A DNA stretch of 64,000 nt from Tetradesmus obliquus. Taxonomy: Eukaryota; Chlorophyta; Chlorophyceae; Sphaeropleales; Scenedesmaceae. The stretch is taken from assembly GCA_030272155.1 (NCBI GenBank), contig CP126202.1:248001-312000 (forward strand), in the 5' to 3' direction. Below the pieces are notes generated by a model. That model had not been told where the DNA came from. It was given only the letters and a program-made list of their open reading frames with translations, and did not search any database. Shown here piece after piece: positions 1 to 45,000 of this stretch. Within the stretch, counting starts at the first letter, position 1. Every line of letters begins with the position of its first letter. Made by a program: the position numbers and the translations under genes.

Positions 1-207
1 AGCATATGCCATGCATGGCTACTGCATGCATGGTCACATGCGCATGCGACACCAAGTGGTTCACCAGCACAATGCAACGGCAGCGTTGCATGCAGGATGA
101 ACAGCACCGCTCAGGTCCTCGTCTACCTGTGCTACATCGTGAGCTGCATGTGCATCACCCTGCAAGCTGCATGCCAGCTACAGCTCCGACGTTTTCCCTT
201 CTCGCAG

Positions 208-3200
208 GTACGCCCTTCCCTGCTGGACGCGAGGCAGCTCTTCTGAAGTCTGTGCTGCAGCTGCTGTTCAGTGGTACAACTGGCCAGCCTGCCGCTGCTG
301 CTGGCACATCTGCAGCAGCAGCAGCAGCAGCTGCTGCTGCTGCTGCACCCCTGCAGCCTGGGTGGATTGGCAGGCTGGTGGACCGGGCTATGCAGTGCCG
401 CAACATCACTGCAGCATCAGAGGCGCAGCAGGTAAGCAGTCCAGCAGGCAGTGTGACATCTGCATACACCAGCTCTACATGGCACATAATCCGTGTTGCC
501 GCAAGAAGGACCAGGTTGCATGGAGTCGCTAGGCAGGTCAAGCGTGCCTGAGCTGCAGCAGCCAAGCTTGCATGAAGATGAAGACGAGGCAATGCCAACA
601 CTCGCATGAGATAGCTTCTGGCGGGCCGGTGGGATGAGCTACAGAGTATTCACAAGTTTCTGCGGCGCTGAAACTGCATGGTGCTGCCACTGGCGCTGCG
701 CCTGCTGCAGGTGCTGAAACAGGTGCTGGCTGTGCTGATGATCCGCCGCACACGTGACGAGGTGGCGGCTGAGCACTACACCATCCCTCCACAGCGCCAC
801 AGCGTGGTGGAGGTGGCGCAGCGGCACTGCGATGCTTTCATGACGAGGCAGCTGCAGAAGACGGCTCGACAGGTGGGTGATTTCCCGCACTGCAAAGGCT
901 CCTGTACGCGATGCACAGACATGCGCTGAACGCAGCGAAACACTTTGTTGCTGATATGGTTGCAGACCGTGCGTTCACCCTGTCGTGGCTCATACCGTTT
1001 AAGAAGGTGCCAAGAAACGTTTTTAACTGCAACCTCTCCAACATGAGTGTACTTGACGACGTGAGGTAGGTGAAGCACGTTTTGCGTAACAGTGGTGGCA
1101 GGCAGCTCACACGCTGGCTGCTTGCTGCATCTCAGCACAACACCTTTCAGCTGAGTCGACACGGGCGGTTTGTTTCAACATGGTGATGCGAACCTGTTGC
1201 TGTTTCTACTACTAAGACAATCTTGGCATCGATGCCCCTCACTGTCGTTGCCACTAGGCGTTTGGGGAGGTGGCTGTTGGCGAGGAGCTGCCTGCCAAAA
1301 CTGCACAGACTCTGTTTGACCGGCTGGTGGGAGCCAGCCTTCACCCGCAGGTGAGAGGGGCGCTGCTGCCCCAATCAGCTCCAATCAACTGTGCTATCTT
1401 CAGGCAAGAGTTGTAGTTGATCTTGCCAGTTGGAGGCATGCATCCGAGGGTAGTTCTGGAATCTACATGTCATAAGCTTTCCAAAACTACCTGATCACAG
1501 CTGACATGGCTTGCACCATCTGTCAGCTCACGCAAGGCATCAGCTGCTGACACGTGAAGCTGTGCACTGTGTGCATGTCAGGCAGTGTGTGCGGGTGCAA
1601 GCAGCGTCACACAGTGTGATGCTGAGGCATGTATCCCCCAGCACGGTTGTGGCGCTCACAGAAGGTGCAACTTGCACGTTTGAAACTTGCCAGCGACCAT
1701 CGGTGCAGACCAAGAGGCGTGTGCAGCAGCTCTGGCGGTCGGCTTCTGCACACAGCGCTGCCTGTAAGTTTTCTACAATGAATTTTACATACTGCATGTT
1801 ATGCTGATGTGTGGCTGTGTGCAGATTGACCGCTGCCTTACGGGCGGCGAGCAGACGCTGGACAGGTTTGGGCTCTTCACTGACCCGCATGTGTGGCTGA
1901 GGAACAACTACAACATGAGAGATGTGCAGCCACAGGTTGGTGCACGGACACATTTGGACCTCCAACTGTGCCTGTATCAACCCTGCCATGCGACCACTGC
2001 AGCGTCAGCGGCCACGCTGTTGCCTTGCGACGCATGCTTCTGCGTAGAACAGCATCTTCGTGTTGCAAGTTGGGTTTTGACGATTGTACTGCAGTTGGTG
2101 CAACTGATCTGGCTTGCACCCATACGTTGCTGCAATAATCGTCATACTGGGCGTGTGTGGGTCCTGCAGGAGAGCTCTGCAAGCACAGCCTATGTGCACA
2201 TCCTGCAAGCACATCCTGCAAGCACATCAGCACGCCACAGATGCATGTAACCAGCACCAGGCTGCTAACATCGGCAGCTGGTCCTGCTGGGTGAACCTGC
2301 AGCAAGCTGCCGGACACTGCTAAGCAAACTGTGCCTGCTGAGCTTCTGAGAGGACCTTAGGGAAATTAATTCAAGCTTCCAAGCTTCACTGCTGACGCCT
2401 TGTGCACCATGTGGGCGCCATGCAGGATGTGCTGGCAGCCCTCATGCAGGACTCCCTTTGGCTGCACAGTGTCAGCAGGGCGGCAGACCTGGCAGCAGCG
2501 GCGTACCAGCTGGCCAGCCACTTGTGCAGCCAGGACAATGAGGGCGCCCCTGACTTTCCAGGCAAGAATCCCAACTGCCGCTGCAGTTCAAGGATATGCA
2601 GAGACACCCTGTGCACAGCAAGCAGTAGACAGATGGGCAGACGTCCGCTAGATTGATGCACATGTTGTGCTGCTCACCGAAGTGCTGGCCGTGTGCTGCT
2701 CCCTGCCAAACACCCTCTTGCATTTGACAAACGTCGAGCCGTGCTTGCGAGGTATGGCAAGCACGCCTGTCAATGGCCCTGCGTGCGCTGCGTCTCTGCT
2801 GCATCTGCAGGTGCGCGGCTGGTAGTGCGGCAGGCACTCGATCTGCTGCAGAGCAGCCTGCCCTTCTACCAGCCAGGCAGCAGAAGGCCCAGGACGCTAC
2901 ATGAGCTGGACTTGCTGAGAGGCTACCCGGATGCTGACAACCCCACAACAGCCAGCTCATATCCAGCGTCAGCATGGCTACACAAGCAGGACCAGGACTG
3001 CTTGCCAGATGTGGCGTTTGGAGGCATCTGCCGCACACGCGCTGCTTATGAAGCAGCAGCACAGGACTTGACCACCAACCTGGGCCACCTGCGCCTGCTA
3101 AGCAGCAGGTTGACTGCCCCTGCAGCTGCCGCAGCAGCGTATGGGGCTGCCGCTGCAGCAGCAGCAGCAGCAGCAGCAGCGGCGGCGGCAGCGCAGCAGC

Positions 3201-5186: not shown

Positions 5187-5240
<54 letters not shown>

Positions 5241-8200
5241 GATACTGCCAATCTTCTGGAGACCATGCCTGCAGTAATCACCCTGCTGAGCGACGGCTTG
5301 CTGCCTGTTGATGTGCCGTGCTGCTGCAACTGCAGCGCGAGGTCGAAAGGCTGCAGGCAGAGCTGGCGGAGCTGTGTGGCAGAACCAGCGCAGAGGTGGC
5401 GCAGCTGCTACGGGACACACAGCAGCTCAAGCAGTGAGTGTTCCTGGGGCAGCTGCTGCGGTCACCTGAGTCATCAAGTGACGATGCGCAATAACATTGC
5501 CAGTCGCTGCTGCATTTTGCGTGCTGATTGACCAGCTTTTCCGCTCGCAAGTGTGAGGTGCCACGACAATCAGAGATTCCCCAGCTTATTTATCAGTTGT
5601 CTTGTCAGGGGCTTGTACCTGGCACCCACCTTGCTGCCGCTGGAGGTTGTGCATCATGGTCGTACCATAAGTGATTAAATGCACATGCACAGCCAGCACC
5701 AGCCTGTCGCTGCCGGTGTCTGCAGCACTTGCGCCATACCTACAATGCTGGGCTCCGCTCCATTGGGGCGCGAGGCCGATGGCGTTGATGCTGGCTTGAT
5801 GGGTAACATGATGATGATGAATGCTGGGCTCCGTGCCTCGCACCTGCAACCTGCGAGAGCTGACACCTGCACATGTGGACTTCAGCATCAGCTGGAAACC
5901 AACAACCTGCTTTTTGAGCTTGGGCTTGCGTGTTGTGTGGTTGCATTGTTTGCCGCATGCGGGTCTGCTGCAGGCCGGCCAGTCAGCCAGGACGCTGCTG
6001 AGCTGTCTAATACTGCTGAGCTGCCTGGTATGGAGTGACTAATGCCTGCAGGTCTGCTGCAGGCCGGCCAGTCAGCCATGAGGCCGCTGAGCTGCTTGCT
6101 ACTGCTGAGCTGCCTGTTTTTGTGTGACTGACGCCTGCAGGTCTGCTGCAGGCCGGCCAGTCAGCCAGGACGCTGCTGAGCTGCCTGCGTTGCCAGCCGC
6201 CTGTGTTTGTGTGATTTGACGCCTGCAGGTCTGCCAGTCAGCCATGAGGCTGCTGAGCTGCCTGCTACTGCTGAGCTGCCTGTTTTTGTGTGACTAATGC
6301 CTGCAGGTCTGCTGCAGGCCGGCCAGTCAGCCATGAGGCCGCTGAGCTGCTTGCTACTGCTGAGCTGCCTGTTTTTGTGTGACTGACGCCTGCAGGTCTG
6401 CTGCAGGCCGGCCAGTCAGCCAGGACGCTGCTGAGCTGCCTGCGTTGCCAGCCGCCTGTGTTTGTGTGATTTGACGCCTGCAGGTCTGCCAGTCAGCCAT
6501 GAGGCTGCTGAGCTGCCTGCTACTGCTGAGCTGCCTGTTTTTGTGTGACTGACGCCTGCAGGTCTGCTGCAGGCCGGCCAGTCAGCCAGGACGCTGCTGA
6601 GCTGCCTGCGTTGCCAGCCGCCTGTGTTTGTGTGATTTGACGCCTGCAGGTCTGCCAGTCAGCCATGAGGCTGCTGAGCTGCCTGCTACTGCTGAGCTGC
6701 CTGTTTTTGTGTGACTGACGCCTGCAGGTCTGCTGCAGGCCGGCCAGTCAGCCAGGACGCTGCTGAGCTGCCTGCGTTGCCAGCCGCCTGTGTTTGTGTG
6801 ATTTGACGCCTGCAGGTCTGCCAGTCAGCCATGAGGCTGCTGAGCTGCCTGCTACTGCTGAGCTGCCTGTTTTTGTGTGACTGACGCCTGCAGGTCTGCT
6901 GCAGGCTGGCCAGTCAGCCGGGAGGCTGCTGAGCTGCCTGCCACTGCTTTCACGTTGACCGCCGCCTGTGTTTGTGTGATTTGACGCCTGCAGGTCTGCT
7001 GCAGGCCGGCCAGTCAGCCAGGACGCTGCTGAGCTGCCTGCGTTGCCAGCCGCCTGTGTTTGTGTGATTTGACGCCTGCAGGTCTGCCAGTCAGCCATGA
7101 GGCTGCTGAGCTGCCTGCTACTGCTGAGCTGCCTGTTTTTGTGTGACTGACGCCTGCAGGTCTGCTGCAGGCTGGCCAGTCAGCCGGGAGGCTGCTGAGC
7201 TGCCTGCCACTGCTTTCACGTTGACCGCCGCCTGTGTTTGTGTGATTTGACGCCTGCAGGTCTGCTGCAGGCCGGCCAGTCAGCCAGGACGCTGCTGAGC
7301 TGGGCTACGGGTCACTGCTGGGCCACGTGGCAGGCATGCTGCTGGGGCAGCTCAAGGATCACAAGGTGAGCGCGGTGCTGCCAGCATCACATGAACACAC
7401 ATTTGAACTCACATTTTGGAAGTTACAAGAGTAACCTCACCCGTTGGGGAGCCAATGACAGGCTCATTGGGCAGAGAAAAAAGCAACCTTAACCGGTCCT
7501 TTGAAAGGGAAGACACTACCAAATCTCATCACTTGAACATACAATTTGAACTGCACAGCTTGGTCACTGCTGGGCCACGTGGCAGGCATGCTGCTGGGGC
7601 AGCTTAAGGAACACAAGGTAAGTACTTTGAGCATGGCTGCCAGCAGCATTCGCTTACGCAGTGTGCACAGCAGAGTGTGGTCTAACAGTGGCTAGGCTGT
7701 GCTCCTGCTCCAAATGCACGTCTTCCGCACTATGGCCTTCTCCAAATGTGTGCTATTTGCTCTGACAGATGGAAGTGGTATTGGCCAGACAGTCCGGATT
7801 CAATGCATGCATGGCAGGGAGCTGCTTAAGCAGTGGCTGTACTGCTGGCCGGTGCTGTAAGTGTGTGGGCAGCCATTCTTGGTCCTGAAGAGCTGGCTGC
7901 TATGCTCCTGCTACAGGCGCGTTCCATCAGACCTTGTACGCGCCAATTGACTCCAGCACTACAATGTGTGTTGTGCCAGGTGGTGCTGGTGACGGCCAAC
8001 AACGCCAACTGACTCCAGCACTGCAAACTTGCTGTGTGCTGTGCCAGGTGGTGCTGGTGACGGCCAACAAGGTGCTGTATTGGGAGCTGCTGCGGCTGCT
8101 CATGAAGCTGGACATAGACTATGAGCACCTGGACCCAAAGGATTGGGTGGCATGCAAGCGGCTTCCGGGCAAGCTGCGGGAGGTGCCGCGCAACAGGCGC

Positions 8201-8635
8201 GAGGGGCTGGACAGGTTTAGGCAGGCGCAGGGCGGCGTGCTGGTGCTCAACGTGCTGGTGAGCGGCGGTTGCGCACCAGGCACTGGCCAGAACCACTGCT
8301 GTGAAGATTCCACCTGGATGGGAATGCCAACTTCAAAGTGGTTGCGTGCTACGTGTTGGTTGCGTCTTGCTGTGTGCAGCCGTACGTTTTTGGCAGTATA
8401 CCGTGCATGTTCATCCGTTGCGGCTGATGTGGTGGATGGTGCGAGGAGCCACAGTACTATCGTCTTGATATTCCCCTGGTGCTGTGCACGACCTGATACT
8501 GAATGCCACATCACGCCACAGCTTGACATAAAAAAAGTGTGTTGCTGCTGTTGCTGCTGCTGCGTCTTGCAGGACCCCCAGCAGGCCGTGGGCCTCACGC
8601 TGATGTGTGCGCACCACAATCTATGGTTTCAAGCA

Positions 8636-8677
<42 letters not shown>

Positions 8678-9902
8678 GCGTGTCTTACAGGACCCCCAGC
8701 AGGCTGTGGGTATCACGCTGACGTGTGCGCACCACATGTTGGTGCTGGACCCGCTGCTGGAGGAGGCCACGCTGCACCAGGTGCGCAGCGGTCGTGACAG
8801 GTTTCACCTGGATGTTTTCTATCGCTGTGTGCGCCTATCAAATAGCCAAAGCCGCAGCTGCAGATGTGGCCTTTGTTGAGGTTTGACCACATAATGCACA
8901 AGGCATGCAGCAGTCTTGAAAAGCTTGGCCTCAGACAGTTGACTGCTGCTGTTGTGATATTTGATAGGTTTGACTATATGGTAGGTCCATTGACAGCTCC
9001 GCCTGGATCTGGTCAACCTATGTTATTAACACACGTTAATTTTTTTCCCACAGACAGTTTACTGCTGCTGCATCACCGTTTGACTGCTTTGACTGGTTTG
9101 ACTGGCTGATGTGTCATCACCTGCTTCACTCCATCAATGCAGAGAAACATGGAAGGATGCTTGTTGCGCATGTCGGCCACATGAACGATGCAATTGGCTG
9201 CAAACAACTTGCTTTTTTCTGCAACTCTGATTGCAGGTTCTGAGCCGCATCCATCGGTACGGCCAGAAGCATGAGCAGCACGTGACTTTCCTGGTGGCAG
9301 CTGGCAGCATCAACAAGCTGCTGCACAACAGGTGGGCGGGCACACGCACCTGCTGATGTGGCAACGGTTTTAAGTTTTGCAACCCAGGCTTGGAATGCCG
9401 CAAATATAAACAAGTGCTTCCAGCACTTGTGTTGTCAGTGTTTACTGTCACAAGGCGTGGTCCTGCAAAGAGGGCTGGGGAGAAGCCGCATGAGCTGTGC
9501 TGTTCACCTGACTCATACAATGATACTGGTTGGTAGGCTGGCAGCGACCTCTGCAGACACAAGCCATGCATTCTTCTGTGATAACAGGCAGTGCTGTAAT
9601 TTTACTGCCGTGGCACTTGCAGGTATGTGCCCCCTGCGCTTCAGCGCTTTATGCAGCAGGGCCAACAGCAAGAGCTGCTGGAGCAGCCCGAAGCAGCAGC
9701 AGCAGCAGCAGCAGCAGCGGCAAATCCGGATGAGGCAGCAGGTGCTGCTGAGCAGCCTGCTGAAATGCCGGCAGCAGCAGCGGCTGTTGCAGCTAGAGGC
9801 CCTGAAGGGGCGGCCGTCTGCCGCAGCAGTAGGGGGGCTGGGCAGGAGCTGCCAGCAGCGCAGGTGGTTGCACTGCTGAAGCAGCACCTCGGGGTGCAGT
9901 GA
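208..9902 (+). CDS. SHPRH: SNF2-family helicase, SHPRH-like, C-terminal part (5' end outside window)
   Basis: Fifteen exons join in phase: 208-431, 711-872, 1258-1350, 1825-1935, 2426-2561 (GC donor), 2811-3322, 3880-4045, 4284-4525, 4757-4921, 5336-5433, 7260-7365, 8048-8257, 8691-8780, 9237-9331, 9623-9902, giving about 895 residues. Exon 1 holds a motif III-like GTP; exon 2 carries LMIRRTRDEVAAEH, the SNF2 motif with paired Arg. The long middle is helical and matches the insert between the two helicase lobes of plant and animal SHPRH (WINTLRQLCDEH, QQKLLHYFEKA, a coiled coil at 5336-5433). The C-lobe follows: VVLVTANKVLYWELLRLL, DPQQAVGITLTCAHH, then the motif VI-like RIHRYGQKHEQHV. The tail is Ala/Gln-rich. 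SHPRH proteins are DNA-dependent ATPases and E3 ubiquitin ligases acting on stalled replication forks. I see no RING finger in the phase-continuous chain. Family assignment is strong for SNF2 and moderate for SHPRH. Confidence 0.8.
911..1069 (+). other. Unassigned open stretch inside the first helicase introns
   Basis: A 52-codon open run starts at ATG 911 and closes with TAG at 1067-1069, directly after a good donor (GTG AG|GTAGGT). Its composition is protein-like and free of homopolymers (FKKVPRNVFNCNLSNMS). It lies between helicase exons 711-872 and 1258-1350, which join in phase without it. It could be a mobile-element scrap or an alternative exon; I recognise no family. Confidence 0.2.
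3580..3879 (+). repeat. 21-bp minisatellite ending at a 3' splice site
   Basis: About 13 near-perfect copies of a 21-bp unit (core TGTGATGCATGGCACCTAC) fill the end of the helicase intron before the exon at 3880. The real acceptor, CACCTACTGTGTTGCAG, is itself a variant of the unit, so the array seems to have grown from the intron's 3' end. The unit length is a multiple of three and one frame stays open through the array, but that frame does not join the exon chain. Confidence 0.9.
5188..5239 (+). repeat. (GCA)17 microsatellite in an intron
   Basis: An uninterrupted run of about 17 GCA/CAG triplets lies in the helicase intron between exons 4757-4921 and 5336-5433. It is one of the longest pure runs in the window, with those at 14377-14424, 30135-30183, 36631-36684, 41970-42026 and 58834-58886. 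Confidence 0.95.
5960..7259 (+). repeat. Tandem array of intron-end/exon-start junctions (two alternating monomers of ~80-90 bp)
   Basis: About 14 monomers of two types alternate, with higher-order spacings near 171 and 258 bp. Type A reads CTGCAGGTCTGCTGCAGGCC... through GACGCTGCTGAGCTG; type B is a shortened form beginning CTGCAGGTCTGCCAGTCAGCC. Each monomer repeats the acceptor (GCCTGCAG followed by GTCTGC) and the first ~45 nt of the exon that is completed only after the last copy, at 7260-7365. After those ~45 nt each unit runs into intron-like sequence (TGTTTGTGTGATTTGACGC) leading to the next acceptor. The array is therefore made of duplicated splice junctions. Confidence 0.9.
7566..7617 (+). 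pseudogene. Second copy of helicase exon 7260-7365 (3' part plus donor)
   Basis: The stretch repeats the last ~52 nt of the 7260-7365 exon with two or three changes (GATCACAAG becomes GAACACAAG) and keeps a donor, GTAAGT, that is stronger than the original. It lacks the exon start. Using both copies would duplicate GHVAGMLLGQLK, so I treat the first as the real exon and this one as an extra or alternative 3' end. Confidence 0.6.
7970..8012 (+). pseudogene. Partial copy of acceptor and start of exon 8048-8257
   Basis: The acceptor and first codons of the exon (GTGCCAG, then GTGGTGCTGGTGACGGCC) appear here about 71 bp upstream of the real exon, then diverge into a TGA. It is a decoy junction. 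Confidence 0.7.
8573..8618 (+). pseudogene. Partial copy of acceptor and start of exon 8691-8780
   Basis: GACCCCCAGCAGGCCGTGGG after a CTTGCAG acceptor duplicates the start of the DPQQAVG exon 118 bp upstream of the full copy. It diverges after about 46 nt, just before codons for the conserved MLVLDPLLEEA part, so it cannot replace the real exon. Confidence 0.75.
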
Positions 9903-11589: not shown

Positions 11590-12843
11590 TCAGAACATGG
11601 GCCGTGTCAGCGGCTTGGTGGCCATGCCGAGCCGTGCCTCCATCTGTGAGTGCAGCTCCACGGGCTGGTCCACGCTGTGCTCAGGCAGGCCCAGGTAGGA
11701 CTCAAACCCGAACGCATCCAGCTCCCCAGTGAGGCTCTCAAGGCCCAGCCTGCTACTGGGCAGGCCAGGCAGGCGCGTGAACTTGCCCAGGATCTGGCGC
11801 TCGATGGCCATGCGGGCGGGGAAGGCCAGGCCATACAGGTCCCGCAGCACCTGCGGGTTCATCACCAGCACCAGATTCATGATACCATTGCCATGAGGGT
11901 GGTGGTTGTTTGCTATGTTGAAGCAGCAAGCCTGCAAACCCCTGACAACCATCTAGCATAGTAACAGCAGCCAGGAAACCCCAGATGCAATGCGATGGCC
12001 ATGCGGACGAGGAAGGCGAGGCTGTACATGTCCCAACGCAGCACCCGCGGGTTCATCACCACCACCAGATTCATAATAACGAGTTGAGCTACAAGGGGGA
12101 GGGAATTTGCTAGAGCAGCAGACCTGCAGCAGGCCTGCAAACGCCTAACGCCCATCACCATCATGTTGCCATCTAGCATAGCTGTAGCAGCCAGCCCCCA
12201 AACCCCAGATGCTGAACCCCCAAATCAGAGGCAACGTGTACCTGGGGGTTGGCTGCAGGCACGCCGGGTGGGGCGGTGGCCTCCTGGATCAGCTGCACCG
12301 GGTGCCTCTGTGGTGGCATGTGTGATAGCAGCAGCGGTGAAACGTATGTGGGTTGGGGTGAGTGATGCGCGTGGAGCATGAGCAGTGCATGTGGTGTGAG
12401 CTGTAAAGTGTGAGCTGTTGCTGCGCTGTACCTGCTGATGGCCAGCATGATATAACAATGCAGTGATATGCACAGCGTGGAAATCAAACTGCTGATTAAG
12501 AGGATGGCTGGCTATGATGTACATCTCTGCTGCAGGAGGGGCTGCTGACAAGGTGAAGCAGCACTGCAAGCGGTTGCTGCACTCCCAGGGCATCATGGGC
12601 CCTGCTGAGCTTGGGCATGCATGTGCAGCCTTGCTGCGTGTGTTGGGTTTATGTCGTTAACTAAGCTTAAGATCACACACAGCCGGATGCTAGGTACGGT
12701 GCAGTGCCTCAAAGAAGGCATGCTGTTGCTCTACTGCTGTTGCAGCACTGTACCTGCAGGGCGTCCTCCTTGAGGCTGCACAGCCCATGCCTAAGGTTGT
12801 CGTGTGCTGCTGCTTGATATGGCAGGGTACAGCTTGGGTCCAT
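11590..12843 (-). CDS. UMP1: Proteasome maturation factor UMP1/POMP
   Basis: Three exons join in phase 0: 12754-12843 (ATG at 12843, 30 codons), 12242-12307 (22 codons) and 11590-11850 (86 codons plus stop), giving 138 residues, close to the usual ~140. Exon 1 holds the conserved HDNLRHGLCSLKEDALQ, exon 2 continues with RHPVQLIQEA, and exon 3 has LYGLAFPARMAIERQILGK, LPSSRLGLESLTG and FGFESYLG, all in the order seen in plant UMP1. UMP1 is the chaperone that joins half-proteasomes, checks beta-subunit maturation and becomes the first substrate of the new 20S particle. Donors are GTACAG and GTACAC. Partial copies of exon 3 lie on both sides of it (11063-11501 and 11986-12080). The model is complete; confidence is high. 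Confidence 0.93.
11986..12080 (-). pseudogene. Decayed copy of the UMP1 exon 3 start
   Basis: About 95 bp match the acceptor and first part of exon 3 (on the minus strand ATGAACCCGCGGGTGCTGCG) at roughly 85% identity, with extra bases that break the frame (MAIERQ becomes MAIALH). It sits inside intron 2, about 140 bp upstream of the real exon in gene orientation. Confidence 0.75.
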
Positions 12844-13846: not shown

Positions 13847-14373
13847 TCAAAGCCCGTGGTCAGCCCACATGCGCAGTGCCGCCCTGTGCAGTGCCATGTG
13901 CCGCTCAGCCAGCACTGCCAAGTCCTTTGCATAGCCGCCGCCCACGTAGCCCGCCACCGGCACGCTTGCCCCTAGGCAGGTGTCCAGCACCAGCAGCTCC
14001 CTGCGCATCAGCCCTGCAGCAGCAATAGAAGCAGCAACAGCGTATGTAGTTTTCAGCACAACTGCAACTCTAGAGGTGTCCAGCACCAGCAGCTCCCTGC
14101 GCATCAGCCCTGCAGCGGCAGCAGCAGCAACAGCAGGTGGAGCACTTTGAGTGCAGATCTGCATACCTCTAGAGGTATCACATGTGTGATTGAGAGCGCT
14201 GCGTCATAAACCGTGATGGGTGGATCGAGGCTGTGTCAGGTGTTGAGCACGGCCAGCATCATGCTGTGCGGCAGCATTAGTGGTTGTAGCTGACGCACCA
14301 ACTTGTCGCACATGTAACAACACCTTCAGCAGCTAGCTGCACAGTACACACAACACCAGCACCATCACCTTCT

Positions 14374-15710: not shown

Positions 15711-15746
<36 letters not shown>

Positions 15747-22173: not shown

Positions 22174-22209
<36 letters not shown>

Positions 22210-23407: not shown

Positions 23408-23454
<47 letters not shown>

Positions 23455-30225: not shown

Positions 30226-31659
30226 ATGTCGGACAATGTCTTCAAATCAGCAGCAGCAGCAGCAGCAGCACCGAACAGTGCTGGAGTAGCAGCTGCCAAA
30301 GGCAGGGTTTCCAGCCTTCCTGTAAAGCGTGCTGCCCCAGAGCGTCCTCATCCACTGCCACAGCACTGCCTCTGCTACTGCTGGTTGTTGCTGCTGCAGA
30401 GCTGGCGTGCAGCAAGATGAGCAGCTGTCAGTGGGTGCTAGCAGCATATCTTCTGTCTTCACGTTGTGCAACACAGCCATAGGGGCGGGCGTGCTGGGGC
30501 TGCCTTTCGCCTTCAGATGCACAGGTGGGAAGGTCAGCTGGTGGCAGAAGGATGTAGTCTTACAAAAAAGTGCAAGCAATGCAGGCTGTGATGTGGCCCA
30601 GGGCCCAATCCGCAGCTGTAGGGCCTTTGCTGGATGTGGCGCCTGGCCTCTACATCAACCTATCCACTGTGTTGCGCAGCAGCGGCAGTGCCTGTCCAAT
30701 TCAAAGCCCACCACAGGCTGCCTTGCTGTGCCATTCCACGGACTCCGATCCCTGTGCTCTGTTACTTGAACTATTACCTGCTTGTTCCTGCTGCACTACA
30801 TTATGTAGGCCTGGTGGGTTCGCTCCTGCTGTTTGCGGCAGTGGCCAGCCTGGAGTCGCTCACAATGTACGTGCTGGCCAAGTTTGCGGAGCGATACGAC
30901 GCTGCTAGCTACGGCAGCTTGATCCGCCGCGCGCTGGGCCGCAAGACCGGCGCGGGGCTGTCTGCCGTGACTGTGCTGTACCTCTGGGGCTCGAGCGTGG
31001 CATACTTGGTGGGTTTGGGGCTTAGCATGCTTGCTGGTGTGTGTGTGTGTGTGGGGGGGGGTGCGTCCTTGATGGGTTGCTGGGCGCAAGACAAGTGCGG
31101 TGCGGTCTGCCATAACTGTGTTGTACATGTGAGGCTCGAACGTGGCCTACTTGGTGGATTGCTGGTTTGCATGGTGACTGGGGTTCACGTGCTTCCTTGG
31201 TGGCATTTTGGGCTACAGGGTTTTCGGGAGATGGGCAGTGAGCACATGTCATGGAAAGCAATTTGTGCTCATACTTGGTGGGTGCGGGGGTTTGCATGCT
31301 TGCTGGTGTGTTTGGAGGTTTGCATGCGTGCTTCGTGGGGTATGTGTGCGCGTGCTTACTTTGGTGGGTCCTGGGTTCAAATGCTTACTTGGTTGATTGC
31401 TTGCCGCAAGACTGGCGCGGGGCTGCCTGCCATGACTGTGCTGTACCTGTGGGGCTCCGCGTAGCCAACTTGGTGGATTGCTGGTTGCATGGTGACTTGG
31501 GTTCACGTACATCCTTGGCGGCATTTTGGGTTTGATGGGCTACAGGGTTTCAGGGAGATGGGCAGTCAGCACAAGTCATGGAAAGCAGATTGTGCTTGTG
31601 TATGTGTTTTTTGCTGCAAGCCCATGTTGGCGATCTGTCCACGGCCATGCTGCTTCTTG

Positions 31660-34446: not shown

Positions 34447-35594
34447 GGCAGCAGCAACAGCAGCTGGCCACAGCAGTGGTGCATGTGTGTCGCCCTGCAA
34501 GCTGCGGTGCTTACAACATCCAGCCGCTGCAGCATGCACTATCCCGCCATCTCAAAAAGTTGACCGCAACGTTCCTTGCTGCGAAGTGTAGTATGCCATC
34601 GTGCTTGCTTTGTGTCAAACACGTTGCTTTTCTAACCTCTGCCTGCAGGACCTGCTGGACGCCACGGCTGATGTGAGGGTGGTGCCGGGCTGGCTGTCGC
34701 GGCTGCTGACGTGCCTGTTTGTGGCCTCCACTGTGGGCACTGCCATGCTGGTGACAGACCTGGGGGCAGTGCTGCACATGATCGGAGGCACGGTGAGCTC
34801 GCCTATCGAGAGGGTTGTGCACAGGGTGCAATCATTTGTGGCTGCTGCTTGGTTTGTGCTGCTTGCGCGGCCTCCACTGTGAGCACTGCCTGGTGACGGA
34901 CCGAGGGTAAGTGCTGCACATGATTGGAGGCACGGTGAGCATTGAGCAGCACTTTTGTGGGGGATTCCAGTCGTTATCGCCCAGCTGTTGCTGCCTGGTA
35001 CTCCCACTGCTTGAATCGTGCTCTTGTAGCAAGCCTGAGCATGTGATTTAGCACATGATCAGTGGTACAATGAATCTGGTGTTTAGTTAGATGTGTGCTG
35101 CAGCATGTTCAAGTGCGTGCTGCTTTTGTGGCCTTCACTGTGGGGGCTGCCATGGGGTGTACTGCTCAACTCTACCAGCAGTACTCTCATGCGCACAACG
35201 CACACCCCTGATGCCGCTGTGTGTGCTGCAGGCTGCGGCGTTCATGGTGTTCCTGCTGCCTGGGCTGCTGCTGATGAACGCAGCCATCATCAAGCACACT
35301 ACTGCTGGCAGCACTGCTGCCACAGGCGACGCAGCAGCAGCAGCAGCAGCGCAGGCCTCTAGCGTCTGCTCAGGCCAGCAAGGTGCAGCAGGAGAAGCGC
35401 CTGACACAGAGGCAGCGGCAGCAGCAGATGGCCTTGCAGCGCCGCTGCTGGTGCCTGCAAGGATCAGCAGGAAGGCAGGGTTTAGGGATGCAGGGCTCAT
35501 CTTCACTCCCCGCAAGAGCTGGTGGGCAGGCCTGCTGCTGGTGGTGGTTGCTGGCGCGGTGATGGCGATCACATGTTTGACCGCGGGAGCATGA
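30226..35594 (+). CDS. Amino acid/auxin permease (AAAP) family transporter
   Basis: Twelve exons join in phase: 30226-30321, 30413-30524, 30809-31008, 31721-31862, 32151-32221, 32543-32647, 33015-33085, 33393-33523, 33866-33939, 34320-34397, 34649-34792, 35232-35594, giving 528 residues. The N-terminal signature SVFTLCNTAIGAGVLGLPFA is the first half-helix that binds the substrate amino group in AAAP/SLC38 proteins. Further hydrophobic segments follow (LLLFAAVASLESLTMYVLA, VTVLYLWGSSVAYL, VPLLLLVGLLLLPCCF, YSISIVVFGFNCH, GAIISYMSIILLGYTAVG, LLTCLFVASTVGTAMLVTDL, FMVFLLPGLLLMNAAI, WWAGLLLVVVAGAVMAI), about 11 in all as expected. An acidic Ala-rich loop precedes the last helix. It probably moves neutral amino acids with H+ or Na+ across the plasma or vacuolar membrane. 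The substrate cannot be read from sequence. Confidence 0.92.
31086..31540 (+). pseudogene. ~320-bp tandem duplication carrying copies of the end of transporter exon 3
   Basis: The exon end coding RKTGAGLSAVTVLYLWGS (real copy 30938-31008) recurs at 31086-31155 and 31404-31474. Both copies have in-frame stops (TGA after the LYM codons; TAG after GSA). The following intron piece, GGGCTACAGGGTTTTCGGGA, is also copied near 31212 and 31535, giving a ~320-bp period. Confidence 0.8.
33578..33757 (+). pseudogene. Two copies of the end of transporter exon 8 with donor
   Basis: 33578-33640 repeats the helix-coding end AIISYMSIILLGYTAVGVSG and its GTGAGG donor almost perfectly, exactly 117 bp after the original. 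33692-33757 is a decayed third copy that has lost the donor. Intron sequence TTTGTTTTCTCCCAATC travels with each unit. Confidence 0.85.
34876..34936 (+). pseudogene. Decayed copy of the end of transporter exon 11
   Basis: GCACATGATTGGAGGCACGG plus donor GTGAGC repeats the end of exon 34649-34792 (LHMIGGT), preceded by a gapped copy of the ASTVGTAMLVTDLG codons. Confidence 0.65.
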
Positions 35595-37174: not shown

Positions 37175-39366
37175 GAGGGTGAAGGGAACAGGGAGGGAAG
37201 TAGCAGCAGAGGCAGCAGCAGCGATGCAGTGGCAGGGAGTGGCACCAGCGGAGAAGGGACGAGCAGCAGCAGCAGCAGTAGCAACAGCAGCAGCAGCAGC
37301 AGCAGGCTGCGCCTGCGGCAGCGGGTGCAGCTGCCAGACATGTGGCTGGGTGAGTGGGCTGTGCCTGTTTTGTCTCTGCAGTGTCTTCATGCAGCTTTAT
37401 AACAGCGCAGATGCATACTCAAAGCACACCTGCATTGCACTCGCTGCATGAGCAGTTGTGGTGTGTGGTTCGCCACCCTGCTGCTATGTTGTGCGTTGAC
37501 TTCCAGCTAGCAGTTGACCAGACATGCTTGTCATCAGCCTCCCATACACCCGACACATATGCCAAAGTGCGTGGCAACTACCACCTGGCATGCGCTGATT
37601 TACCTACACACAGTCAACACGGTTGCTTGCACTTGTTGCTGCATTGGCTGCACCTGTTGCACTTGTTGCTGCATTGGCTGCACCTGTTGCACTTGTTGCT
37701 GCATTGGCTGCACCTGTTGCATCTGTTGCTGCTTTGGGCTGCAGGCACTGCCAAGCTGCCCCCGCAGCAGGCCTACGTGGCCTCACTGCTGCTGCCGCCA
37801 CGCCGCCAGCAGCAGCAGCAGCAAAAGCCAGGCAGCAGCAGCAGCAGCAGCAAGCCCCCTAACACCACCCAGCAGCAGCAGCAGCCACCTGCCAACAGCA
37901 GCGCCGGATCCGCTGCTGGAGCAGCAGCGGCAGCGGCAGCGGCAGCAGCAGTGCCAGCGGTTGGCGGCTTGTTGGGTGTGCAGGTGCTGCGCTGCTTTGA
38001 CCTTGATGTGGACGTGGCTGGCAACCAGCTGGCGCTGCACCCCGCAGGCCACGTTGAGCTGGGGCTGTGTGACGTGGCAGGCATGACGCCCGTGCCGTGT
38101 CGCTTTACAAAGAGTGAGTGACTGCTTCTAGTGTTACAAGTTTGCTGTTGCTGTCAACGCTGTCAGTCGCCTCTACTTTATGTGTCCAGTATCAAGTCTT
38201 CACTGGGCTGCTGGACCTATCAGCAGCCACCAGCATCCTCAACTGGGAGGCTGTAATGCACTCCACTTGCCTCATCTCACTGCCTCATGCCACTTGCTGT
38301 GACTACCCTGTGGCCAGGAGGTGCCTCCATACTGACCCTTACAAGCTGCTGCTGCCGCCTGCTGCAACCTGTCCATTCGTGTGCTTGCTGTGCAGGTGGT
38401 GCCATCGTGCTGCCAGTGTCCCTGGCAGGCAGCGCGCCTTTCACTGGGCTGCTGGACCTGTCAGCAGCCACCAGCATACTCAACTGGGAGGCCGCTGCAC
38501 TGCTGGGCATGAACTGCACAGAGCAACAGCAGGAGGAGCGCCAGTGGCAGCAGCAGCAGCAGCAGCAGTTGGCAAGTGACGGCAGCAGCAGCGGTGCCAC
38601 AGCAGCAGCAGGGAGCAGCACGCCGCAGGGGCAGGGAGGCAGCAGCAGCGGTGGCGGTGGGGCGGCCAACATGTATGGCTACTTTGGCAATATTGAGGTG
38701 CTGCCAGATGCAGAGCTGCTGCTGCAGCGGCCTAAGCTGCCTGGCAGCGGCAGCGGCAGCAGCAGCAGCAGCGCCCAGGTGGCTGAGCATCACCACAGTC
38801 ACCAGCAACAGCAGCAGCACGGACTGCATGTCAGCGGCCACAGCAGCAGCAGCAGCAGCAGCAGCAGCCATCTTGATGCTCTGAACCGGCAGCCACCAAA
38901 GATATCGCTGCCAGGCGGATTGGGGACAGGCAGCAGCAGCAGCAGCAGCAGCATCGGCGGCTGGCTGGAAGGCAATGTGCAACCATTTAGTAGCCCACAG
39001 AGCGCTAAGGGAGGCCGTGGCAGCAGCAGCAGCAGCAACGGCAGTGGATACAGTCCGCTGCGGGTGCAGCAGCATCAGGTGGCTGCCAGTGCTGTGAAGC
39101 TGGTGTTAGGCCATGCGAGGCTTGCAGCTGCGGCAGCAGCAACTGCAACCAGCACCACCAGCAGCAGCAGCAGCTCAGGTTCGCTGCTCCTGTCACCGCC
39201 TTCGCGGTTTGGCGTTGCGGGGTTGCGGGGTTTAGCGCAGCTGGGCCTGTCTGGGCAGCCCGCTATGGTGGTGGGCGCAGATGTGTGGGGCCGGCAGCGT
39301 GCAGTGCTGTGCCTCAAGTCTGGCTGGCTGTACCTGGCTGACAGGCCCCCTCAAGTGCACCAGTGA
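36092..39366 (+). CDS. Retropepsin-like protein with two aspartyl-protease-type domains, probably inactive
   Basis: Four exons join in phase: 36092-36314, 36579-37349, 37745-38113, 38396-39366, for 777 residues. After a Gln/Ser-rich start, residues of the first domain read RRYLTVPVDVEGVGFVDFLLDGSSYLSRIT, and a hydrophobic-hydrophobic-Gly block (GGLLGVQVLRCFDLDVD) closes it. A second domain begins IVLPVSLAGSAPFTGLLDLS, then AATSILNWEAAALLGM, and closes with MVVGADVWG plus a final strand. The pattern (strand, D-x-x, then S/T-x-I) is that of retropepsin-like folds in plant aspartyl-protease family proteins, but the catalytic D-T/S-G has become D-G-S and D-L-S. Ser, Gln and Ala homopolymers split both domains. 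No clear signal peptide is seen. The fold call is moderate and the function unknown. Confidence 0.6.
37622..37744 (+). repeat. 30-bp minisatellite ending at a 3' splice site
   Basis: Nearly four copies of a 30-bp unit (CACTTGTTGCTGCATTGGCT, then GCACCTGTTG) form the pyrimidine-rich end of the intron. The last variant copy, CTTTGGGCTGCAG, is the acceptor used at 37745. Confidence 0.9.
38190..38256 (+). pseudogene. Copy of an internal piece of exon 38396-39366
   Basis: The piece coding FTGLLDLSAATSILNWEA is repeated about 238 bp upstream in the intron, with a few synonymous changes, and then diverges. Confidence 0.75.
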
Positions 39367-40729: not shown

Positions 40730-40770
<41 letters not shown>

Positions 40771-41968
40771 CTGCTGGTATGATGCATCCGCAGCAGCTAG
40801 GAAAGGGAAGGCCGCCAGTTGCCTCTATGCAATTGTATTTCATTGTGCAGCTCCTCACTGGCGTGCCTCACGGGCTGTGCTCGCATAGCCCATTGGCGGT
40901 GCAGCAGCATTGCACTGCATTGCACTGGCGTGCAGAGAGCCGCTGCCATGCCATGCAGCACAGCTGCACTGTGCTGCAGCTTACGCTGGGAAAGTACACA
41001 GGCATGCAGTGCACCTCTGCAGTGCACAACATCATCGCACTGTGTCATCTTCTTCTCATATCAGCCACACTCACTAACACACGGCATAACATGCGACAGA
41101 TGCAGCATGGATGCTTGCATGCATGCAGATGCTCTCCTGCAGCAGCTGCCTTACACAGCTGTCGCTGCTGCTCACTCTGCTGCTCACACTGCTGCTCACA
41201 CTGCTGCTCACACACTGCTGCTGACACATGCCACTCGCAGCACACATCAGGCATGCCCCATTAGGCCCTAACCATCATGCACACAAACGTGCCCCTCCTG
41301 CAGTGCAGGGGTGATTGCTGACGACGTGTCCTGCCAGCAGCCGTCCAACCTCTCGCTTCCAGCACATGACATCTACCTTGCATGCCTGCACACACTAACA
41401 CCCACATGTGTGTCAACATGCCCCTCCTGCAGGGGTGACTGCTGACGACGTGTCCTGCCAGCAGCCGCCCAGCCTCTCGCTTCCAGCACATGACATCTAC
41501 CTTGCATGCCTGCACACACTAACACCCACATGTGTGTCAACATGCCCCTCCTGCAGGGGTGACTGCTGACGACGTGTCCTGCCAGCAGCCCCCCAGCCTC
41601 TCTCTTTGCTCTTGAGGCACATGATATGCAGCTTGCAGGCCTGCCGTTTATGCACATACTAACATCCACATGTGTGTTAACATGCCCCTCCTGCAGGAGT
41701 GCTTGCTGACGACGTATCCTGCCAGCAGCCGCCCAGCCTCTCAATTGAAGCCCAGAAGCCGGCTGACCAGTGCCAGGGCTCCCTGGACGGCTCCAGCACC
41801 CGCATCGTGACCAACCTCACATACACAGCCAGCATGACAGGCAACGGCGACATTGCGCCCACCTTTGAGACTTTCTTTGATGGAGAGGCCAGCAGCTGCG
41901 AGCCGGAGGTCGTAGGTGAGTTCCAATTTGCAGCAATGGTTGCAGCAGCAGGAGCAGTAGGAGCCAGC

Positions 41969-42027
<59 letters not shown>

Positions 42028-45000
42028 TGCTGCGAGCCGGAAGTTGTGAGTGATTGGCTGCAGGAACAGCAGCAGCATTAGCAGCCAGCGCAGCAGCAGC
42101 AGCAGCAGCTGCGAGCCGGAGGTTGTGAGTAAGTGGCTGCAGGCAGCACAGCATCAGCAGCTGCGGTAGCAGCAACAGACGTTAGCGGCAGGGATGGCAG
42201 CAGGAGCCGCTGCAATCAAGAAGCGACCTAGGGTGGTGTAGGCCCATCAGCATCAGGAGTGGCAGCAGAAGTGTCAGCAGCAGCAGCAGCTGACCTGTAA
42301 CGCAGCTGGTGAGAGGGGCCGAGACATCCCTGCAGCCGCAGCAGCAGTAGTGACATGCATCAGTCCAAAAACCCCATATGCGCTGACAGTTCTGCATACT
42401 GATCTGCTGCCGTCCCCGCTGCAATGACCCTCGCACCTGGCTGCCGGCATCGCTGTCGTACCCGTTACAAAAATAACAAACTGACAGTGGAGCGCTCCAT
42501 GGACGGCTTCACACAGTCTGGCGTGGTCGCTGTGGCCTGCCAGGGCTCCTTCAGCGAGGGCCCGCATTCACTGCAGGTCACAGCTATTTTCGACAACGGC
42601 ATGCCTGGCTGCGGTGGCGTGTTCAGAACCATCTCCACAACCGCAGTCGTCATCGGGCCCCCAAGCATCCGGCTCACCAAGGCGCAAGATGCCGAGCTGT
42701 GCTTCGGCAGCAAGCAGTTTTTGCTGAGCTTCCCGTATGAGAAGAGCGAGAGCGTGCGCGGGCTCGCGATGGGGTACACTGTGACGGTCAATGGCCAGGA
42801 CAGGAGCATGTGCAGCGCTGCTGAGTCGGGGGCAGGTGGGTGAGCGGGAGGCTCCGGTAGGTGCCATTTGCAGACAAAATGGGATGTAGTATACTCCTGC
42901 TTGGGCAGGCGCGCTGGTAGCAGCTGCTGCGCTGCAAAACATGCATGCAGGTTTGGCAGCAATGCAAGGTTGCTGCCAGCAGCAGAGGGAGGAGAGAATT
43001 GGCACCACAGCAGCAGCTGCCCATGTGTTGCATAATCACGGCTTACCAGGCGCAGCACTCTGCCTTACACCTTGTTGCCGGCCTCACCACTGCTGCTGCT
43101 GCTGCCACTGCTGCCGCTGCTGCTAGTCGCTGCTGTGTACAACAGGTGTGACGGTCACCTGCAGCACAAACGCCGCTGCTGGCTTTGCCTTGGGCACCTA
43201 CGACGTCACCACTGCTTGTGATGCTGCTGCTGCTGCTGCTGTTGCTGTTGCTGTTGTTAACTGCCGCTGTCTACAACAGGCGTAACCGTCACCTGCAGCA
43301 CAAATGACGCTGCCGGCTTTGCCTCCGGCACCTACGACATCACCCTTGCAGCCTACCTGATGGAGCAAGGTGCAGTGTCAGTCTGCAAACAGGAGCTTGC
43401 CACGACACCCGTAACCACGCGCATCAGCGTCAAAGCAAGGCCAATTGTCAACCTGAGGCACCTGGAGCCTGTGCCAGTGTGCTTGGGTGCTCGAACCGCA
43501 ACAGCGCAGTTTGAGTACTGGGTGGACAATGCGGGCAATGGAGCGCAGGTGGCTGCTATCAAGCCGCTGGGGCAGGTGGTGGCACCTGGCACGCTGGCGG
43601 CGCTGTCGACTGACTGCAAGTCGACACTAGAAGGTGGGTGGCTGTGATGTACAAAGTATTTGAATACCGAGAGGGAGGTAGTTGCGTGTGGTATTTGCAT
43701 GAAGCAGCACTAGATGATGAGTGACGGCAGCATAGCGTTCTGCTGTAGCACCATCATGGTGACGGATTAGTGGCTGCTGTGTACGACATAATAGCAGGAG
43801 CGGCAGCAGCAGCAGGATTGCGTTGCTGGGCCAGGTGGTGGCACCTGGCACGCTGGCGGCGCTGTCGACTGACTGCAAGTCGACCCTGGAATGTGGGTGG
43901 CTGCTCACACAGTGGTGTGTTTGACACACGGTGGTATGTTTGACACACATGTTCGACACACAGCAGTATGTTTGAGACACATGTTTGACACACAGCAGTG
44001 TGTTTGAGACACATGTTTGACACACAGCAGTGTGTTTGGCGCTGGAAGGTGGTCGGCCATGTGCTGTTCAGACATATCTGCATATCACAGCTTTGCTAAA
44101 CCTGGCTGAAAAGGCGCGAAGCACAACGTATAGCAGCGGTGTGGGCCAGTCTGTTGCAGGGTGAACAGCAAAGTAGAAGCAGCAGTGATGCCTCGCCTAA
44201 CTCAGTCAACTTATTATGCTGTCAACTTCCTGTCATCAGACACACAATGATGGTCATAATCTTGCTGCTGCGGTGCTCTGTTCACTATTTACTGCTTGCA
44301 GCGTCCAGCGCAACTACCGGCAAGCTCACCGTCACATGCGGGGGAAACTTTGGCTTTGTGAATGGCAAGTGGAACGTGAAGGCCTCCATTGCTGCAACTT
44401 GCAACGACGTCAGCGCCCTCAACAGCGCACCTGCCATGGCAGCAGCAGCAGTAGGAACAGATGCAGTGTCCGCCAACGCCACAGCTGCTGCTGGCAGTGC
44501 AGCTTCTACTGTGGAGCTGACTGCTGCTCCTGCCGCAGCAGTAACAGGAACCCTTGAGATAACAGTGCCGCTATCCTGCTGCCTAACTGGCAGCTCGGTA
44601 ATGGCTTTTGCCCGCAGCAAAGCCGGCGTGGCACCCGCCTCCCGCTGCTTCAGGCCAAAAGTGCCCGGATCCGGAAATCACAAGGTCTGCAGCCTAAACC
44701 ACGGGTTTTGGAACCGCGGGCCGATGCCACTAGGCCGCATGTGGGTGGTGCCACAGCCGCCAGCCAGCGTGAAGCAACCCACTTGCAGCAGGCCTGGAGG
44801 GTTCAAGGTTGGAGATGTTATTGCGGAGTGTGTGCTGCAGGGCGGGAAGCTGCCGGACCTGATGAACATAACACTTGTTACAAGCAAATATAACGACCCT
44901 CGCAGGCGCACATTTGTCTTCTCGTGCGATCCACCTGGAGCTGGCGGCTGCACCACAAAGTGAGAGCAGCAGCAGCAGCAGCAGCAGCGCCTGCAGCTTA

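Follow-up and report, generated by a model that had tools for sequence, protein, structure and literature searches.

In rice, duplications 10-1000 bp long, either tandem or 'partially tandem', have been described, and break repair was proposed as their origin (Vaughn and Bennetzen 2014, cited in the relevant passages of PMC7407515 and PMC8355091). Small tandem duplications also arise through fill-in by Pol alpha-primase at staggered breaks, according to the part of PMC8355091 that deals with this pathway. In the present study, we analysed a window of 64 kb (the whole stretch of DNA under study) from the green alga Tetradesmus obliquus, in which exon edges recur, together with their splice sites, in the neighbouring introns. 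These exon-edge copies are real and far beyond chance, and many genes of this alga carry copies of exon ends with the splice site.

Extent of the local duplications

The survey covered 84 kb, i.e., the window extended by 10 kb at either end, with microsatellites masked and a blastn score of at least 40. It yielded 142 same-strand pairs no more than 2 kb apart and 1 pair at 4-8 kb, with no inverted pair and no pair more than 8 kb apart at that score in the same 84 kb. Clusters numbered 44 in these 84 kb and 86 in 19 other 10-kb stretches (274 kb in total), at least one being present in 16 of the 19 stretches, or in 18 under soft masking. A sequence-only reading had listed 21 entries at exon edges, which become 22 positions when 5960-7259 is counted at both ends; each of the 22 had a local same-strand duplicate pair no more than 25 bp away (HDAC 14076 was also read directly). 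Its description of the copies as local, same-strand and of mixed age holds as well, the identity ranging from about 68 to 100%, and applies across the genome sample. Its count of seven affected genes out of eight is consistent with the gene at 27.4-29.0 kb, which has no pair at all.

In the SNF2-related helicase gene (forward strand), an array of units composed of acceptor and exon start, with a period of 77-89 bp and higher units, lies directly before the predicted exon 7271-7365 (5936..7302; TRF, self-blast, gene model and SNF2-rel_dom). An exon end with its donor (7310-7370) recurs 252 bp downstream in the intron at 7562-7622 with 95% identity (7310..7622), the 191 bp between the copies being mostly not alignable to the flank. 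Self-blast further revealed an acceptor and exon start with a tandem copy 62 bp upstream (7941..8070), and an acceptor with 46 bp of exon (8652-8736) copied upstream at 8540-8618, at a step of 112-118 bp (8540..8736). On the reverse strand, the UMP1 gene, supported by its domain match, has its acceptor and exon start (11802-11884) copied into the upstream intron at 11993-12078 (11802..12078), with amino-acid changes and 3 extra bases in the copy.

In the HDAC gene, also on the reverse strand, an acceptor with exon start, by direct reading, has a copy 96 bp upstream (13978..14179), in which the exon part is identical (36/36) and the intron part diverged and gapped; the remaining features were found by self-blast. 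Exon start and acceptor are copied into the upstream intron at a step of 117 bp (14482..14811), and an exon end with donor has copies at steps of about 110-130 bp (15027..15461), where the protein record P0052 fits the edge 15397-15451 as native. The acceptor and exon start at 15495-15561, whose residues are those of P0052, recur 132 bp upstream at 15627-15693 (15495..15743). Another exon end with donor has downstream-intron copies at steps of 108 and about 348 bp (15730..16209), and the acceptor and exon start at 16346-16424 are copied at 16540-16618 (96%) and about 16671-16773 (16334..16773). Finally, an exon-interior piece (17086-17118) was copied into an intron at a step of 117 bp (16969..17118), with two second-position differences.

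In the Myb gene (forward strand), an exon end with donor recurs in units of 149 bp and of 398 bp, the longer ones being 98% identical (20113..21201; TRF and self-blast). An acceptor with 71 bp of exon has a copy 161 bp upstream (21510..21744; self-blast), and an acceptor copy (22167/22294, step 127) is accompanied by an array of exon end and donor at a step of about 137 bp (22167..23182; TRF, self-blast and Myb domain). Downstream lie an acceptor and exon start at a step of 128 bp and 92% identity (23297..23515) and diverged copies of an exon end with donor (23570..24091; self-blast). The transporter gene (forward strand) shows exon ends with donors, detected by self-blast, at three places: at an edge whose donor the gene model predicts after 31008, with diverged copies at 31082-31156, containing a stop, and at 31403-31479 (30938..31596); as three copies at a step of 117 bp, a segment present once in protein P0001 (33460..33759); and with downstream copies, one of which carries a stop (34890-34940; 34718..35154).

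In the surface-protein-like gene (forward strand), acceptor and exon start are copied at a 129-bp step (41286..41742; self-blast) and, as a nearly complete tandem unit, at a step of 134 bp (43090..43344), and the exon end with donor at 43566-43644 recurs 259 bp downstream at 43825-43903 with 95% identity (43566..43903), blastn aligning none of the intervening sequence. Copies are not confined to junctions, as intron-intron, exon-to-intron and intergenic pairs occur too: an exon-interior piece without a splice site (38440-38492, forward strand) was copied 241 bp upstream into an intron at 38199-38251 (38199..38492; self-blast). The retrotransposon had been said to be free of copies, which is not quite accurate, its long open reading frame containing an in-frame tandem array without a splice site (53298..53774, reverse strand; self-blast). 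This array says little about splice sites, because the retrotransposon has no known ones.

Association with splice junctions

On junction classes taken from self-trained gene models, 76 of 130 clusters lay at splice junctions, against 51.7 by random placement. Two-copy pairs joining a junction to a copy within the adjacent intron numbered 26 against 7.9 by chance, EX/EX pairs 0 against 7.4 and intergenic pairs 3 against 11.2; at identities of at least 90%, junction pairs made up 12 of 17. A simulation of survivorship and detectability, composed of selection and decay at rates assumed by us, gave a junction share of 0.28-0.32, compared with 26/38 (68%) observed. The idea of a process acting at exon-intron boundaries is partly supported, in that junction copies exceed both random placement and simulation. 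In the window region alone the excess was not significant (21/44 versus 16.7, p = 0.09), and clusters at least 96% identical had no junction excess (7/21 versus 7.9). By splice motifs, without gene models, donors were enriched (19/58 and 22/58 versus 9.8 and 9.6, p ≤ 0.0013) and acceptors weakly so (16/58 and 15/58 versus 11, p = 0.06 and 0.12), with no acceptor enrichment at identities of at least 90% (4/25 versus 4.3). Across 20 sequences, cluster number tracked the density of introns (Spearman 0.58, p = 0.007).

Steps were most frequent at 110-140 bp: of 150 clusters, 58 fell at 110-139 bp, and of 58 two-copy pairs, 40 fell at 90-145 bp. Relative to the step, the unit was at least 80% complete in 11 of these 58 pairs, 50-80% in 16 and less than 50% in 31. 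Similarity to the flank that a tandem unit would predict exceeded the 99% null for 5 of 50 spacers and the 95% null for 12 of 50, and the weak mean similarity vanished against a same-intron control, so that plain head-to-tail duplication probably does not describe most of the spacered pairs. Spacers were also more A+T-rich than control introns (GC 0.489 versus 0.530). As for the suggested microhomology-mediated repair, microhomology of at least 4 bp was not in excess at the points where copying would return (55 pairs); the match at the exact ends averaged 1.0-1.1 bp versus 0.4 bp (same 55 pairs, MWU p = 0.13). Fill-in models, for their part, do not need microhomology. In 64 junction-to-intron copies, the median exon part was 33.5 bp for donors and 46 bp for acceptors, and the median intron part just 11.5 and 12.5 bp. 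The common piece was mostly exon-side in 20 spacered two-copy junction copies (mean 0.25, p = 0.0007), and without such weighting in 6 more complete ones (mean 0.54).

The explanation that we place first, at about an even chance, is recurrent short local duplication that starts preferentially at or near exons and is kept where splicing tolerates the duplicates. In T. obliquus, direct local duplication, tandem or 'partially tandem' and typically at a step of 90-145 bp, would occur repeatedly, its source, we infer, being most likely either the repair of breaks that lie close together or backward slippage over short distances during replication. A duplicate spanning a splice junction would be tolerated because the gene keeps one intact edge to splice, with the spare copy ending in the intron and often decaying, and duplicates within coding exons would be purged by selection. 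Such survivorship, junction-spanning copies being harmless, accounts for part of the junction association and not for all of it. What is left of the excess, roughly a doubling in the share of pairs, suggests a preference for events to begin in exons or at the exon edge. In favour of this explanation are the same-strand and almost wholly local pairs, the peaked step, the lack of EX/EX pairs, the junction excess over the simulation, the donors enriched by motif, the exon-side weighting of spacered copies, the broken copies and the single edges in two protein records. Less easily reconciled with it are the spacers unlike the expected flank and their A+T richness, the lack of excess microhomology, the third-position differences between exon and copy and the missing junction excess among the most similar clusters.

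A rather doubtful alternative is a transcription- or splicing-coupled process at exon-intron boundaries, in which copying would be provoked or templated by, e.g., R-loops or splicing intermediates, and the edge with its splice signal would form one unit. The excess over the simulation, the donors enriched without gene models, the long exon and short intron parts, the exon-weighted spacered copies and the correlation with intron density all speak for it. Nevertheless, exon-interior and intron-only copies share similar steps, acceptors are not significant by motif, the excess is absent at identities of at least 96%, and the same geometry is predicted by an exon-biased process combined with the need for a working splice site. 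We hold it equally improbable that a duplication process preferring a step near 120 bp (or near double that length) targets the boundaries, copying 30-70 bp of exon edge with the splice signal into the adjacent intron via transcription- or splicing-linked breaks or exchange between diverged homologous copies, and so supplying splice-site duplicates genome-wide.

Somewhat less probable still is pure survivorship, i.e., random short tandem duplications of unbiased origin, kept where splicing permits and visible for longer since one copy is a conserved exon. The depletion of EX/EX pairs, the missing excess among the 21 most similar clusters and the non-significant window region agree with it, as do the passages of PMC3887541 reporting that Chlamydomonas and Volvox introns are dense in tandem repeats, more so near their ends. 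Against it stand the junction share, about twice that simulated (at assumed rates), and the scarcity of intergenic pairs.

Fate of the copies and remaining explanations

It had also been proposed that the copies create alternative exons. In two genes a single copy is used: the T. obliquus HDAC record P0052 and the transporter protein P0001 each contain every edge once, with the extra copies skipped. Differences between exon and copy are coding-like and fall mostly on third positions (22, 18 and 68 by codon position), an excess that persists outside CpG and is not expected of a copy dead from birth. The dN/dS between exon and copy was 0.20 (0.13-0.30) for 33 two-copy pairs and 0.29 (0.24-0.37) for 114 pairs, GC3 was 0.80 for the exons and 0.79 for the copies of two-copy pairs, and the splice-site score exceeded 0 in 25/31 acceptor and 21/28 donor copies. 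These features favour the view that selection maintains many of the intronic copies as functional alternative exons or edges, which we nonetheless regard as improbable: apart from the single edges, the steps of the 33 two-copy pairs show no preference for multiples of three (13/10/10), and the junction copies are partial, without the rest of the exon. Several have changed residues or are broken by stops or frameshifts (two in the transporter, two in L016, and L018), and the coding signature could also mean descent from diverged alleles. Mutually exclusive tandem exons do not fit, since junction copies are not complete exons and, in the two genes compared, P0052 and P0001 contain every edge a single time.

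Coding-like differences are likewise what two alleles would show if haplotypes or mis-joined reads had been placed in tandem. Such an assembly artefact is very improbable, given 104.66 Mb in just 17 contigs, the broad range of identities, the many-copy arrays and the spread over 18 of 19 sampled stretches.

Intron gain, whether through an exon piece with AGGT duplicated in tandem or through introner-like insertion, has the slightest chance of all. An intron lying shortly beyond the window (C12, about 317,249-317,344, L024) has ends matching in register and a step equal to its length of 96 bp, a second (L023) has step and length of 101 bp, and in 14 of 100 intron/pair rows, including 4 from the helicase array and 2 from long repeats in L020, step and intron length differ by no more than 10 bp. 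Yet the register test (at least 30/50 matches) was passed by 1 of 373 introns, with a mean match of 15.17 versus 14.99 of 50; as a general explanation this route was rejected, a clear fit being limited to 1-2 of the 373, and the same counts bear on the suggestion that introns are moved, the step exactly equalling the length in 2. For insertion, 10 of 48 spacers had non-local matches at E ≤ 0.01 in the 274 kb, the 40 matches listed all coming from one repetitive-looking spacer. The regions holding the spacers of three young pairs (L016, L009 and L011) matched only their own neighbourhood genome-wide, with no paralogue found for these three loci. A mobile element, for which a many-copy insert is expected, is thus not supported at the three loci compared with the genome.

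Implications and comparison with known systems

Should the junction bias and the step near 120 bp extend to the whole genome, the alga would offer a natural system to count and date the supply of duplicated splice sites, which are proposed raw material for new introns, for alternative edges and for the sliding of introns. Mutation-accumulation lines would then allow a direct test of break repair at the edges of exons. For annotation there is a warning: gene finders readily take intronic copies for extra exons, as our self-trained gene models did in HDAC and the transporter.

The rice duplications of Vaughn and Bennetzen reportedly show a 31-bp bias, whereas the alga has a step near 120 bp and an excess at junctions. 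The two are alike in being short, local and direct, including non-tandem cases with inserts of nearby DNA (passages of PMC7407515 and PMC8355091). Pol alpha-primase duplications resemble those of the alga as tandem duplications of tens of bp, formed at breaks with 3' overhangs, but differ in their exact adjacent copies, the relevant part of PMC8355091 describing no spacer or splice-site link. Chlamydomonas and Volvox share introns that are repeat-rich near exon-intron junctions, although the top motifs in the pertinent passages of PMC3887541 are short simple repeats and not exon-edge copies. The direct repeats near splice sites treated in part of PMC11782384 are also located at exon-intron borders, yet measure 4-30 bp and are shared between both ends of a single intron, whereas in the alga an exon edge is paired with an intron copy. 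Intron gain by tandem duplication, as outlined in parts of PMC2891723 (see also PMC4974935), likewise involves local duplication touching splice sites; there the intron ends would copy each other, whereas one alga intron in 373 is in register. In the Daphnia pulex neointrons, as far as the passages of PMC4202315 describe them, the stretches in common with the exon measure 4-12 bp and the insert is a new intron, whereas the copies in the alga are mostly 30-90 bp and lie beside existing introns. They resemble the alga in their A+T-rich inserts of about 78 bp, mostly of unknown source, in the direct repeats shared with an adjacent exon, and in the staggered breaks proposed as their origin (same passages of PMC4202315).

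Short local duplicates and their setting

The sequence examined, the 84-kb window region (the window with 10 kb on each side) together with 19 other 10-kb stretches (a twentieth, which read N, was left out), amounts to 274 kb, or 0.26% of a genome of 104.66 Mb in 17 contigs, of which C12, the contig that carries the window at 248001-312000, has 5,113,433 bases. When the window region was compared with itself (microsatellites masked, score at least 40), 142 same-strand pairs were found within 2 kb, one at 4-8 kb and none beyond, and not a single inverted pair. The one distant pair is probably a couple of very similar coding segments, coiled-coil-like in translation, on the same strand about 4.7 kb apart (window 58563-58769 and about 63500-63743). 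Grouped into clusters, the duplicates numbered 44 in the 84 kb and 86 in the 19 other stretches (0-11 per stretch, with none in 3 of the 19), and clusters per base rose with intron density over 20 sequences (Spearman 0.58, p=0.007). All 22 of the duplication positions listed in the sequence-only reading lie within 25 bp of a local same-strand pair. Its statement that the retrotransposon shows none has to be amended, since an in-frame array was found inside that element at 53298-53774. The retrotransposon itself (window 48900-55700, minus strand) carries long ORFs and, in translation, a cysteine-rich segment after the polymerase region, which presumably resembles a PHD finger.

Under soft masking, the smallest well-supported step (the offset between copies) was 110-139 bp in 58 of 150 clusters, and the median copy length was 60 bp. 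Among the 80 single-pair clusters, 58 clean two-copy pairs with a step below 400 were retained; their steps were 90-145 bp in 40, 146-229 in seven, 230-275 in six and less than 90 in five. As a tandem unit, the copied piece covered at least 80% of the step in 11 pairs, 50-80% in 16 and less than half in 31, the rest being spacer between the copies.

Repeats of other kinds were also observed. Two intronic minisatellites occupy window 3601-3858 (21-bp unit, 12 copies, 98%) and 24356-24525 (34-bp unit, five copies, 100%), and a short cagtcaggagccaacgagaggctcat-like motif, possibly a dispersed repeat, was seen by eye twice at 47050-47150 and in similar form in a helicase intron at about 7440-7475. 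Among the sampled loci, L020 holds long direct repeats of mobile-element-like appearance (about 5946-7934, 1395-bp step, 100%) and L018 holds 518-bp tandem units that are 96% identical (4382-5677).

Association with splice junctions

Junctions were taken from self-trained gene models (374 introns, 761 junctions), for which the splice matrices were set from 35 donor sites and 33 acceptor sites picked by eye within the window and left uncurated, one of the 35 donors being scored as not GT. The gene finder over-calls intronic copies as exons in the histone deacetylase (HDAC) and transporter genes, as comparison with the protein records P0052 and P0001 indicates, and the introns predicted inside the retrotransposon, whose junctions are kept among the 761, are probably false. 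With Pfam, these models support an SNF2-related helicase, the HDAC, UMP1, a Myb protein and an amino-acid transporter in the window; Pfam gave no match for the 27-kb gene or for the surface-protein-like gene, and a search with the protein of the latter found no homologue. The T. obliquus HDAC record P0052 (OEZ86_004398) matches our own model at 100% across 84% of the query.

The proposed clustering at splice sites holds against random placement for all clusters (76/130 touching a junction vs 51.7, p<=0.001) and for the 19 stretches alone (55/86 vs 34.6, p<=0.001), but falls short in the window region by itself (21/44 vs 16.7, p=0.09). Clusters at least 96% identical showed no junction excess (7/21 vs 7.9 expected). 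For the 58 two-copy pairs, the outstanding class was junction with intron (26 vs 7.9 by chance), along with junction with two junctions (5 vs 0.3) and junction with junction (3 vs 1.7). Intron with intron (12 vs 16.6), exon with intron (6 vs 6.3), exon with junction (2 vs 4.2), intron with two junctions (1 vs 0.9) and intergenic pairs (3 vs 11.2) followed, and exon with exon was absent (0 vs 7.4).

Some junction excess is to be expected, because a duplicate does no harm when it spans a junction but does when it falls within a coding exon. A simulation of survivorship and detectability (6,000 draws, score threshold as in the real data, with constraint, mutation and indel rates of our own assumption) predicts a junction share of 28-32% among junction and intron pairs, whereas 26/38 was seen (p about 1e-6 at 0.30) and 12/17 at identities of at least 90% (p about 7e-4). 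By share of pairs, the junction excess left unexplained by survival and detectability is about two-fold. Independently of gene models, strong donor motifs occurred in 19/58 first copies and 22/58 second copies (9.8 and 9.6 expected; p 0.0013 and 0.0003), and acceptor motifs in 16/58 and 15/58 (11 expected; p 0.06 and 0.12); at identities of at least 90% the counts were 9/25 vs 3.7 for donors (p 0.007) and 4/25 vs 4.3 for acceptors. A two-window version, in which copies were treated as independent, put donors at p 0.015-0.03 in three sets and at 0.07 for identities of at least 90%, with no significance for acceptors or for donors and acceptors together; since the copies of a pair are not independent, it was replaced by the one-copy test.

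The copy lay on the intron side in 26/26 junction-intron pairs, a result partly forced by the definition of the class. Exon sequence made up most of the shared piece in the 20 incomplete pairs, those with completeness below 0.7 (relative intron share 0.25 on average, p=0.0007), and in the remaining six the two parts were balanced (0.54). In a set of 64 junction-to-intron copies, which counts some junctions more than once, exon parts had medians of 33.5 bp (donors) and 46 bp (acceptors), and intron parts of 11.5 and 12.5 bp. The copy lay 45-142 bp from its junction in 35 cases, 158 in one, 170-275 in 16 and 298-342 in seven, and five copies were on the exon side.

Use, decay and coding signature of the copies

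The idea that the copies could create alternative exons finds no support in the protein records of two genes, the transporter protein P0001 and P0052 each holding every duplicated edge once. Mapped back, P0001 recovers the transporter exons except one short exon, and the spare copies fall in introns, two of them with stops; as its source contigs do not exceed 3,380 bases, less than the gene's span of over 5 kb, P0001 is probably RNA-derived. The mapping of P0052 missed the native HDAC exons for about residues 155-227, where the native edge would be the one suggested by comparing P0052 with the model protein, which carries both versions. Residues are changed in the copies at UMP1 and HDAC 16969, two copies at L016 carry a one-base gap and the copy at L018 has a stop.

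In 33 two-copy exon-intron pairs, differences at codon positions 1, 2 and 3 numbered 22, 18 and 68 of about 465 sites each, with dN/dS 0.20 (bootstrap 0.13-0.30) and GC3 0.80 vs 0.79. For the 41 pairs of an earlier set these counts were 32, 39 and 87 (of about 635), and 114 pairs gave dN/dS 0.29 (0.24-0.37), their differences being 129, 106 and 272 in 95 spacered and 16, 13 and 53 in 19 complete pairs. The third-position excess persists without CpG (0.038, 0.031, 0.101). In exon-intron pairs of the sampled loci, CpG sites were roughly three times as likely as other sites to differ between copies (0.37 vs 0.10 at third positions of two-copy pairs), as if CpG mutation were fast. By our reasoning, a copy dead from birth should show dN/dS of about 0.5 or more; the lower values therefore suggest either that some copies were once coding, or that the copies of a pair trace back to alleles that had already diverged, or that some real exons were mislabelled by the models.

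Origin of the duplicates and related cases

Most simply, short stretches would be duplicated locally and often, the duplicates surviving where splicing tolerates them, with the extra junction excess on top. Since exon sequence predominates in the spacered copies, the pattern is equally compatible with a process directed at junctions and with an exon-biased origin followed by filtering for an intact splice site.

Several sources for the spacer were rejected. The view that a spacer is generally what remains, in diverged form, of a full tandem unit had a type-matched null of p=0.0025 at 70 bp in its favour, but a same-intron control removes the signal; 5/50 spacers resembled the rest of the unit above the 99% null and 12/50 above the 95% null. 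Derivation from elsewhere in the genome was dismissed for three loci (L016, L009 and L011), where the spacer regions of three young pairs match their own neighbourhood only; non-local matches within the 274 kb were found for 10/48 spacers and, among the 40 matches listed, all came from one repetitive-looking spacer. Hairpin-forming or locally templated spacers find no support (58 spacers, z -0.31 vs -0.08, p=0.19; local exact matches no different), nor does a return guided by microhomology, there being no excess of at least 4 bp at the return point in 55 pairs, where exact ends matched over a mean of 1.0-1.1 bp vs 0.4 (p=0.13). In base composition, the spacers exceed control introns in A+T (GC 0.489 in 53 spacers vs 0.530, p=4e-5).

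Upstream sequence context did not tell the older copy apart, both contexts being acceptor-like without difference. Paralogues sought to polarise the events yielded, at the three loci, only the locus and its neighbourhood, and the surface-gene search was swamped by microsatellites. AGGT intron gain as the rule was rejected on a test of predicted introns. At L024, which adjoins the window, the ends of a 96-bp predicted intron (about 5249-5344; C12 about 317249-317344) match in register at 33/50, making this intron a candidate for gain through tandem duplication.

The open-licence PMC literature, taken mostly at title and abstract level, yielded no report of exon-edge copies with a step of about 120 bp, which is weak evidence of novelty. 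Related cases appear in published work: tandem and partially tandem duplications from break repair (PMC7407515, citing Vaughn and Bennetzen; PMC8355091), direct repeats at the borders of introns (PMC11782384), tandem duplication with novel intron positions in Drosophila (PMC2891723), introns with repeats close to their ends in Chlamydomonas and Volvox (PMC3887541), and Daphnia neointrons with A+T-rich inserts and repeats shared with the exon (PMC4202315).
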